A DNA stretch of 35,316 nucleotides from the IMG/VR virus record IMGVR_UViG_3300011116_000414, positions 1-35,316 of that record, one strand, 5' to 3'. Under the pieces are notes generated by a model. The model saw only the letters and a program-made list of their open reading frames with translations. It was not told the DNA's origin and did not search any database. Below, one piece after another: positions 15,220 through 20,804 of this stretch; position 1 is the stretch's first letter; the number at the start of each line of letters is the position of its first letter. The translations under genes and the position numbers were made by a program. The DNA is from a virus.

Positions 15220-15268
15220 GGGGGGGTGTCCGTTTCGGCCTAACCCTAACCGTATGGCTAAGGGTTAG
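15220..15268. repeat. G7 tract and long imperfect hairpin
   Basis: A run of seven G (15220-15226) is followed by CTAACCC (15240-15246) and its complement GGGTTAG (15262-15268), with CC-gtat-GG at the centre, giving a nearly continuous hairpin. No T-run follows. It opens the repeat-rich part of the control region. Confidence 0.4.
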
Positions 15269-19728: not shown

Positions 19729-19735
19729 AATATGA
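19451..19735 (+). CDS. Possible overprinted gene inside transglycosylase, 94 aa
   Basis: An open frame starts at GTG 19451 after GGAGAAG, overlapping the 95-aa stop as GTGA, and ends in ATGA with the methyltransferase start. Most of it lies inside the transglycosylase in another frame. The first 40 residues look composition-driven, but residues 40-82 (SDQQLTELLSCLERKIADLN and on to TVTQRIEVALRF) form a convincing amphipathic helix. The exact coupling at both ends is suggestive; a chance open frame is the alternative. Confidence 0.4.
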   Translation: MRTRHLRLVTHEHSDTVRSKSPALSLYGPVKAGLTTLPTTSDQQLTELLSCLERKIADLNTKSYTVLDTLTTVTQRIEVALRFDTTSESTGIKI

Positions 19736-20199
19736 AACTTATATTAGACCCTGCTTCATCAATGCGTTCTTTTTATTTTGATAAAAAAGACCCACGAGTT
19801 TTATTTGGTGATATTCGAGAGGACGAGACTCACTTACTAACCAATGGGCAGACTATTAAAATTAAACCTGATGAGGTTATGGACTTCAGGGCAATACCTT
19901 ACCCAGATGAGTCCTTTCAAACAGTTGTCTTTGATCCGCCTCATATGCTGAGACTTTCAGAGAAGTCTTGGATGCGTAAGAAGTATGGAGTATTAGACAG
20001 CGAGAACTGGAGAGATGATTTGACTAAAGGTTTTGCTGAGTGCTTCAGAGTATTAAAGACTAATGGTACTTTGGTATTTAAGTGGAACGAAGTATCTATT
20101 CCATTAAAAGAAGTGCTGGCTCTTACCCCCCCCAATACAAACCGGTTCTTGGACATCCTTCGGGTAAGAGGATGGGTACTCACTGGGTGCTGTTCCTAA
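19732..20199 (+). CDS. SAM-dependent methyltransferase, frameshifted at a poly-C tract
   Basis: Class I methyltransferase of a phage-borne family: LILDPASSMRSFYFDK, LFGDIRE, PYPDESFQTVVFDPPH (catalytic-loop DPPH at 68-71) and GTLVFKWNE (112-120). Nucleic acid is the likely substrate. After residue 134 the frame reads through eight C (20126-20133) into an unrelated tail (NTNRFLDILRVRGW). Reading one base back at the tract instead gives QYKPVLGHPSGKRMGTHWVL then FLK, the expected family ending (KPLFGHxSGK...THW), stopping at 20202-20204. So the true gene is probably 19732-20204 with a -1 shift, or the tract length varies, or the assembly is one C short. Confidence 0.75.
   Translation: MKLILDPASSMRSFYFDKKDPRVLFGDIREDETHLLTNGQTIKIKPDEVMDFRAIPYPDESFQTVVFDPPHMLRLSEKSWMRKKYGVLDSENWRDDLTKGFAECFRVLKTNGTLVFKWNEVSIPLKEVLALTPPNTNRFLDILRVRGWVLTGCCS
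20126..20133 (+). repeat. Poly-C(8) tract at methyltransferase frameshift
   Basis: Eight consecutive C, exactly where the methyltransferase switches from the family frame to a foreign one. One more C, or a -1 slip, restores the expected C-terminus. Homopolymers like this are the usual basis of phase-variable bacterial methyltransferases and also a common sequencing error site. Confidence 0.8.
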
Positions 20200-20208
20200 A
20201 ATAAATGT

Positions 20209-20293
20209 GCTAGGTTTCTAACCCTTTCCTAGCAACCTTTTCTCGTCGAGCGAGAAAACAAAATACCCTTCACCGTTTGGTGGAGGGTATTTT
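20209..20293. terminator. Bidirectional terminator with three hairpins between convergent operons
   Basis: Hairpin 1: gctagg (20209-20214) with cctagc (20228-20233). Hairpin 2: ttttctcg (20238-20245) with cgagaaaa (20251-20258), perfect. Hairpin 3: a 15-bp stem (20260-20274 with 20279-20293, one G-T pair) with loop gttt; its base is AAAA/TTTT, so it gives a U-tract in both directions. It ends the rightward early operon and the leftward replication operon. Confidence 0.8.
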
Positions 20294-20342
20294 GCTAGCA
20301 CTCAACAAGCGGGCGCTTGCCAAGATCTAAATAATAAACTAA

Positions 20343-20804
20343 CTATCTCATAATAACAAGTGCTGACGGAAACGGAGCAGAGTTCTTTTGGTTGCCAAAC
20401 TTCAAGCGAACACGTATAAATCTAATCTCGTGATGTATGCAGTAATCGTGCCACCAAGAGGTATCGGTACGAGCTGGCACTAGGCAAACTACTGCCCCCC
20501 CCCCAGCAGCAACGGCGTTCGCCTTGCGAACCCAGTCTTTAATAGTCCTACCATATGGAGGGTTGAGCCAGATAGTGCCAGCACTATCCTTAGCCCAGTC
20601 TCTAGTAAAGGCATCACGCCTTGAGTGGTCAGGATGATCAGGACCATACCAGTTATCGGGTACAAGAGTTGAAGATTCAAGGGCTGCTGCATCTAAGGTG
20701 AAACTAAACTCAGCGTTGACTTTATCGTAGTAATCACGTGGCGTAGTCCACGTATCATCATTAGAAGTCTTGAATGTATCAGTCTTATAGAATCCTTCAG
20801 TCAT
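20343..20804 (-). CDS. Phage DNA N6-adenine methyltransferase (Dam-type), 153 aa
   Basis: TWTTPRDYYDKVNAEFSFTL then DAAALE is the N-terminal signature of the phage Dam family; IWLNPPYGRTIKDWV carries the catalytic NPPY (81-84); VCLVPARTDTSWWHDYC and FGNQKNSAPFPSALVI complete the family. About 150 residues is normal for it. It would methylate adenines in phage DNA, probably against host restriction. Residues 101-103 (GGG) are coded by a run of ten G on the coding strand (plus-strand C, 20495-20504), here in frame; a length change of one base would truncate the protein. ATG 20804 is coupled (TAATG) to the FmdB-like gene. Confidence 0.85.
   Translation of the reverse strand: MTEGFYKTDTFKTSNDDTWTTPRDYYDKVNAEFSFTLDAAALESSTLVPDNWYGPDHPDHSRRDAFTRDWAKDSAGTIWLNPPYGRTIKDWVRKANAVAAGGGAVVCLVPARTDTSWWHDYCIHHEIRFIRVRLKFGNQKNSAPFPSALVIMR
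20495..20504 (-). repeat. Poly-G(10) tract inside the adenine methyltransferase
   Basis: Ten consecutive C on the plus strand, that is G on the coding strand, between the NPPY motif and the LVPAR motif. In frame as given. Together with the C8 tract about 370 bases away it makes two methyltransferase genes with slippery homopolymers. Confidence 0.8.

Follow-up and report, generated by a model that had tools for sequence, protein, structure and literature searches.

Two convergent genes for putative DNA methyltransferases in the viral stretch analysed here (the window, 35,316 bases at its full length) are very probably phase-variable (contingency) loci, in which phage DNA modification is switched by strand slippage. 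Three features of contingency loci are present: a tract inside the gene sets the reading frame, ON (in-frame) and OFF (frameshifted) lengths are found in near-identical relatives, and the tract is longer and more conserved than expected by chance. The rightward gene belongs to the phrog_954 family (M954), the leftward one encodes a Dam-type enzyme, and relatives carry the same type of switch in a third family, the cytosine-C5 methyltransferases (Dcm).

The window encodes a terminase, a major head protein, a primase, a DnaB-like helicase, an exonuclease and a sigma factor. Among isolates, it is closest to the Planktophila phages LanE43-AprE7 (E7) and LanE43-AprF5 (F5), which were grown on 'Ca. 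Planktophila' LanE-43 (PMC10202952). E7 matches 20 of the 33 compared window ORFs, including the terminase (47% identity), capsid, primase, helicase and sigma factor, and Streptomyces phages are farther relatives. The host is inferred, not shown, to be a freshwater actinobacterium. Megablast found no match to window positions 1-25000 among phage records.

Two tract-bearing methyltransferase genes in the window

Coordinates of the methyltransferase genes, their tracts and neighbouring elements in the window
Feature	Position	Strand	Remarks
M954 methyltransferase gene (phrog_954)	19732..20199	+	OFF; frameshift at C8 tract, early end
C8 tract, proposed M954 switch	20126-20133	+	C8-C11 at the same site in relatives, with ON and OFF lengths
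Strong hairpin between M954 and Dam	20259..20294		opposite-strand self-match; folding energy -26.8 kcal/mol, z = -6.4
Dam-type N6-adenine methyltransferase gene	20343..20804	-	ON (in frame); PF05869, phrog_111, intact ORF
G10 on coding strand (C10 on +), proposed Dam switch	20495-20504	-	encodes AGGGA
G7 run	15220-15226		lies between the terminase gene and the rightward genes, where long ORFs are lacking; next longest G/C run in the window

The window copy of M954 matches phrog_954 (E=4.5e-57) only up to residue 133, that is, up to the tract, as expected of an OFF allele. Past the C8 tract the ORF reads NTNRFLDILRVRGWVLTGCCS and stops, and the conserved C-terminus, QYKPVLGHPSGKRMGTHWVLFLK, lies in the -1 frame and ends at a stop codon at 20202-20204; a tract of C9 (or C6) would place the gene in frame. 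M954 homologues without a run, as well as C9 relatives such as L006, are in frame at this site. An intact relative, P0003, is recognized by PADLOC over its whole length (residues 1-156) as a Type II methyltransferase (MTase_II, E=5.4e-61), and four residues behind the tract (G145, T150, F155 and K157) are invariant. The structure model of M954 (mean pLDDT 71.6) matches general methyltransferases only and does not settle the substrate. We regard M954 as a putative DNA methyltransferase, with inferred activity and target and a model that fits just the general methyltransferase fold.

The Dam gene scores above the curated cut-off for PF05869 (E=1.1e-20, 74.5 bits against 28.1), matches phrog_111 (E=6.3e-40) and falls below the cut-off for TIGR01712 (67.1 bits against 97.05). 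It shares sequence, the catalytic NPPY motif and an intact ORF with the phage Dam family (PF05869, TIGR01712), whereas it differs by a long G run, located in the loop that follows the NPPY motif. No solved structure resembling this Dam by sequence was found. In its structure model the tract-encoded residues form a turn linking a helix to a strand, where extra glycines would plausibly be tolerated. The part of Dam behind the tract has more than 20 invariant residues; since invariant residues lie behind the tracts of both M954 and Dam, a frameshift there should destroy either enzyme, although this remains an inference.

The starts of the two tracts are 369 bases apart, and the hairpin separating the facing genes is probably a bidirectional terminator. 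No other G/C run of at least 8 bases occurs in the window, for which a first-order Markov model predicts 0.175 runs of at least 8 and 0.01 runs of at least 10. The earlier note, made from these letters alone, had described the tracts as about 370 bases apart, rare in the window except for a G7 run, and leaving one gene off and the other on; on all these points it is borne out, the Dam ORF being intact. A comparable layout was seen in L084, L095, L112, L115 and L129, where Dam and a C5 enzyme face each other on opposite strands, with tract states of ON/ON or ON/OFF; none of the few pairs seen is OFF in both genes.

Tract alleles, length variation and selection among relatives

We searched IMG/VR by homology scans and by two tract-directed scans, and contigs fetched twice were removed. 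It should be noted that tract-directed scans pick tract genes, so the totals with and without tract are not natural frequencies; this selection leaves the ON/OFF split untouched, apart from the condition that a hit had to contain the downstream motif. Runs of at least 7 bases (G7-G11) were found at the same site of Dam in 62 contigs, of which 46 are ON and 16 OFF, whereas all 54 Dam genes without a run are ON (Fisher p=1.7e-5). Fifteen M954 genes carry the tract (10 ON, 5 OFF) and 64 lack it, none of the latter being OFF. For Dcm, the tract scan returned at least 120 stretches and at least 107 tract genes were classed, with 82 ON and 25 OFF among the matches listed; the nine tract-less genes among these matches are ON. 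Taking the three families together, 46 of 184 tract alleles (25%) are frameshifted, in contrast to none of 127 tract-less homologues (the Dcm part of both counts being limited to the matches listed). OFF alleles are shifted in both directions (+1 or -1). Run lengths in Dam are two-peaked, at 2-5 or 7-11 bases and never 6.

The cytosine-C5 enzyme (Dcm) is split over two adjacent ORFs; its G tract lies near the start of the second, C-terminal ORF, ahead of the motif PTLNAFDN (e.g., L161:3400-4800 and L415:12031-13450). Two-part Pfam matches of C5 enzymes were rejected as frameshifts, as the cases read consist of two separate ORFs. Also rejected were the G37 tract of L188, an assembly artefact, and three tract-pattern matches (L235-L237; two from Streptomyces, one from Actinomycetota) whose translation shows no Dam protein around the run. 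An OFF Dam gene with a G10 tract occurs in a Gallionellaceae MAG (L234, DMCN01000004.1) and in a near-identical IMG/VR contig (L219); if the bin is correct, the switch extends beyond actinobacterial phages.

The tracts exceed what the encoded proteins would require. When the same proteins were back-translated with the codon usage of each contig, runs of at least 7 were expected in 0.8 of the 81 in-frame Dam genes and in 0.4 of the 76 in-frame M954 genes that the homology scans had recovered, whereas 27 and 11 genes, respectively, have them. Across the 36 homology-chosen contigs (1.39 Mb), all 18 G/C runs of at least 8 lie in methyltransferase genes (11 in Dam, 3 in M954, 4 in Dcm). The contigs were picked for Dam or M954, which partly predetermines these two counts but not the four Dcm runs or the absence of runs outside methyltransferases; at the Markov rate of the window about 7 runs of at least 8 would be expected elsewhere in 1.39 Mb. 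The majority of the other, unclassed runs in all fetched loci again fall in methyltransferases. Further G/C runs of at least 8 were seen at different sites of M954 and C5 genes and in other methyltransferase-like genes (L075:3347, L076:5300, L062:6039, L208:9505, L216:492 and L129:6727), one of the latter genes having a ParB-like domain by eye.

Length variation was compared in 69 pairs of distinct near-identical contigs, which cover Dam and Dcm of relatives only, the window having no near-identical partner among the contigs at hand. Seven of 35 comparisons show a difference in tract length (about 4 independent events), the cleanest pair being L085 (G8, ON) and L201 (G7, OFF), with 99.96% identity over 5,148 bp. 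None of 158 control runs (A/T of at least 6, G/C of 6) differs. Of the other G/C runs of these pairs, 1 of 7 differs at length 7, owing to misalignment, and none of the 14 with at least 8 bases does; by itself, the latter control cannot tell the groups apart. Tract length is equal in the remaining 28 comparisons, showing that switching is not constant.

Tract presence is clustered on the Dam tree (13 changes against 38.8 with shuffled labels) and is thus inherited. ON and OFF states, in contrast, change about as often as shuffled labels do, specifically 13 against 14.4 times for Dam and 20 against 22.2 times for Dcm (among the matches listed). This scatter lends indirect support to reversible, high-rate switching in the population, which remains inferred in the absence of reads. 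Behind OFF tracts pN/pS is 0.064 for Dcm and 0.097 for Dam, compared with 0.142 and 0.103 in ON genes, indicating that codons downstream of OFF tracts are still under purifying selection; this estimate spans only about 30 codons per gene, begins in a conserved motif and, for Dcm, uses the matches listed. Taken together, length differences, tree scatter and downstream conservation agree with recent, reversible switching rather than with decay.

Alternative explanations and proposed mechanism

Every relative considered here is a metagenome assembly, in which G/C runs are the hardest places, and the G37 run of L188 is a clear artefact, so one may ask whether all these genes are truly in frame and their homopolymers merely miscounted. 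We consider this improbable: near-identical contigs assembled from different metagenomes share the same OFF length (L295/L296/L346 and L282/L330/L354), an OFF share of about 25% far exceeds plausible consensus error at 7-11 bases, other runs agree in the same pairs (0/158 differ), and error leaves unexplained why long runs occupy a single site and are restricted to methyltransferase genes. It is scarcely credible that OFF genes are ordinary pseudogenes, irreversibly damaged by base loss in the run, as codons behind the tract are equally conserved in OFF and ON alleles, frameshifts in this region are absent from all tract-less homologues and the runs are kept long against codon usage; the one observation in line with decay is that the window shares the OFF state of M954 with its nearest relative, L003. 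A single genotype could also yield a short and a full-length protein by programmed ribosomal frameshifting or transcriptional slippage, given that the window frame A CC CCC CCC is a possible -1 slippery site and that the -1 frame encodes the missing C-terminus. Such a mechanism needs one fixed frame relation, whereas most relatives are in frame and the rest are shifted by +1 or -1, which makes it very improbable; leaky expression from OFF alleles is possible.

A real switch with another role, such as the timing of replication or packaging or altered gene expression of the infected host, is rather unlikely but retains some weight. Phage methyltransferases are able to change host gene expression, as described for PamA of a Staphylococcus prophage in a review (PMC13076061). 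However, the complete absence of certain tetramers is a sign of strong restriction pressure, and the same type of switch in three enzyme families fits diversity of marks better than a single regulatory role. Phase variation, which the earlier note had suggested, draws its support from length polymorphism among relatives, reproducible OFF alleles and intact downstream frames, as well as from the conserved site in three methyltransferase families and the lack of such tracts elsewhere in relatives.

In the proposed phase-variable mechanism, slipped-strand mispairing during phage DNA replication would add or remove one base of the G/C run. The resulting frame shift would produce an enzyme without its conserved C-terminal part (OFF), and a reverse shift would restore that part (ON), so that n switches could give one phage as many as 2^n modification states. 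Most likely the switch would serve bet-hedging against hosts with differing defences, where modified DNA may be safe from some restriction enzymes and unmodified DNA from modification-dependent ones. The suggestion of mixed modification states within one burst is probably too strong. Slippage rates at such tracts are well below one event per burst, so a mixture across the population is likelier.

Possible restriction pressure and significance for phage populations

The window has no CATG against about 111 expected; CATG is absent from 27 of 50 contigs, and TTAA, GTAC or GATC are absent from others. E7 and F5, of 39 kb each, have no AGCT, CATG, CCGG, GATC or GGCC at all, and that both isolates lack five tetramers gives an idea of how strong restriction pressure in lakes may be. 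Such evacuation of palindromic tetramers points to restriction pressure, which is plausible for these phages; E7 also encodes what is probably an ArdA antirestriction protein, and restriction enzymes are present in its host (PMC10202952). Searches of E7 and F5 for the three methyltransferase families found no member, and neither phage has a G/C run of at least 8. As a counterpoint, these two phages thrive on their host without the enzymes by having no sites. GATC is missing from 0 of 27 Dam-carrying contigs and from 4 of 23 others (p=0.038, with related genomes counted separately and several motifs examined), weak evidence that fits protection of GATC by Dam, whose methylation target is inferred. 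Comparing M954 or Dcm presence with relief of any one avoided tetramer gave nothing firm. A switch serving restriction evasion fits these observations, but its benefit is inferred. By inference, modification-dependent restriction in some hosts would be the natural candidate reason for the OFF state.

The components of this system are already known. In bacteria, Type III mod genes and the Type IIG enzymes of Campylobacter jejuni (PMC4889913) are phase-variable methyltransferases that share repeat-tract frameshift switching with the phage genes described here; the bacterial ones are restriction-system enzymes, whereas the phage ones are small, solitary and from other families. Campylobacter phages are reported to have hypermutable G tracts whose length switches a receptor-binding protein gene (Sorensen et al. 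2021, Cell Rep 35:109214, cited in PMC11868660), whereas the phages of freshwater bacteria studied here would switch DNA methyltransferases. We found no report of a homopolymer-switched phage methyltransferase in the openly licensed literature searched.

We lean, with reservations, towards a broader reading in which aquatic phages of a widespread group, to which relatives of the phages of the abundant freshwater 'Ca. Nanopelagicales' belong, carry one to three independently switching methyltransferases, so that their populations are mixtures of modification states, a viral counterpart of the phasevarion kept by alternating restriction and modification-dependent pressure. The switches are short and recognisable in sequence and occur in well over 100 contigs, so their rates and benefits could be measured from existing reads. 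Phages are usually described with a fixed DNA modification. If phage groups switch it randomly, modification would be a trait of the population, similar to the surface antigens of pathogens, and studies of restriction should treat it as an arms race with mixtures as the opponent.
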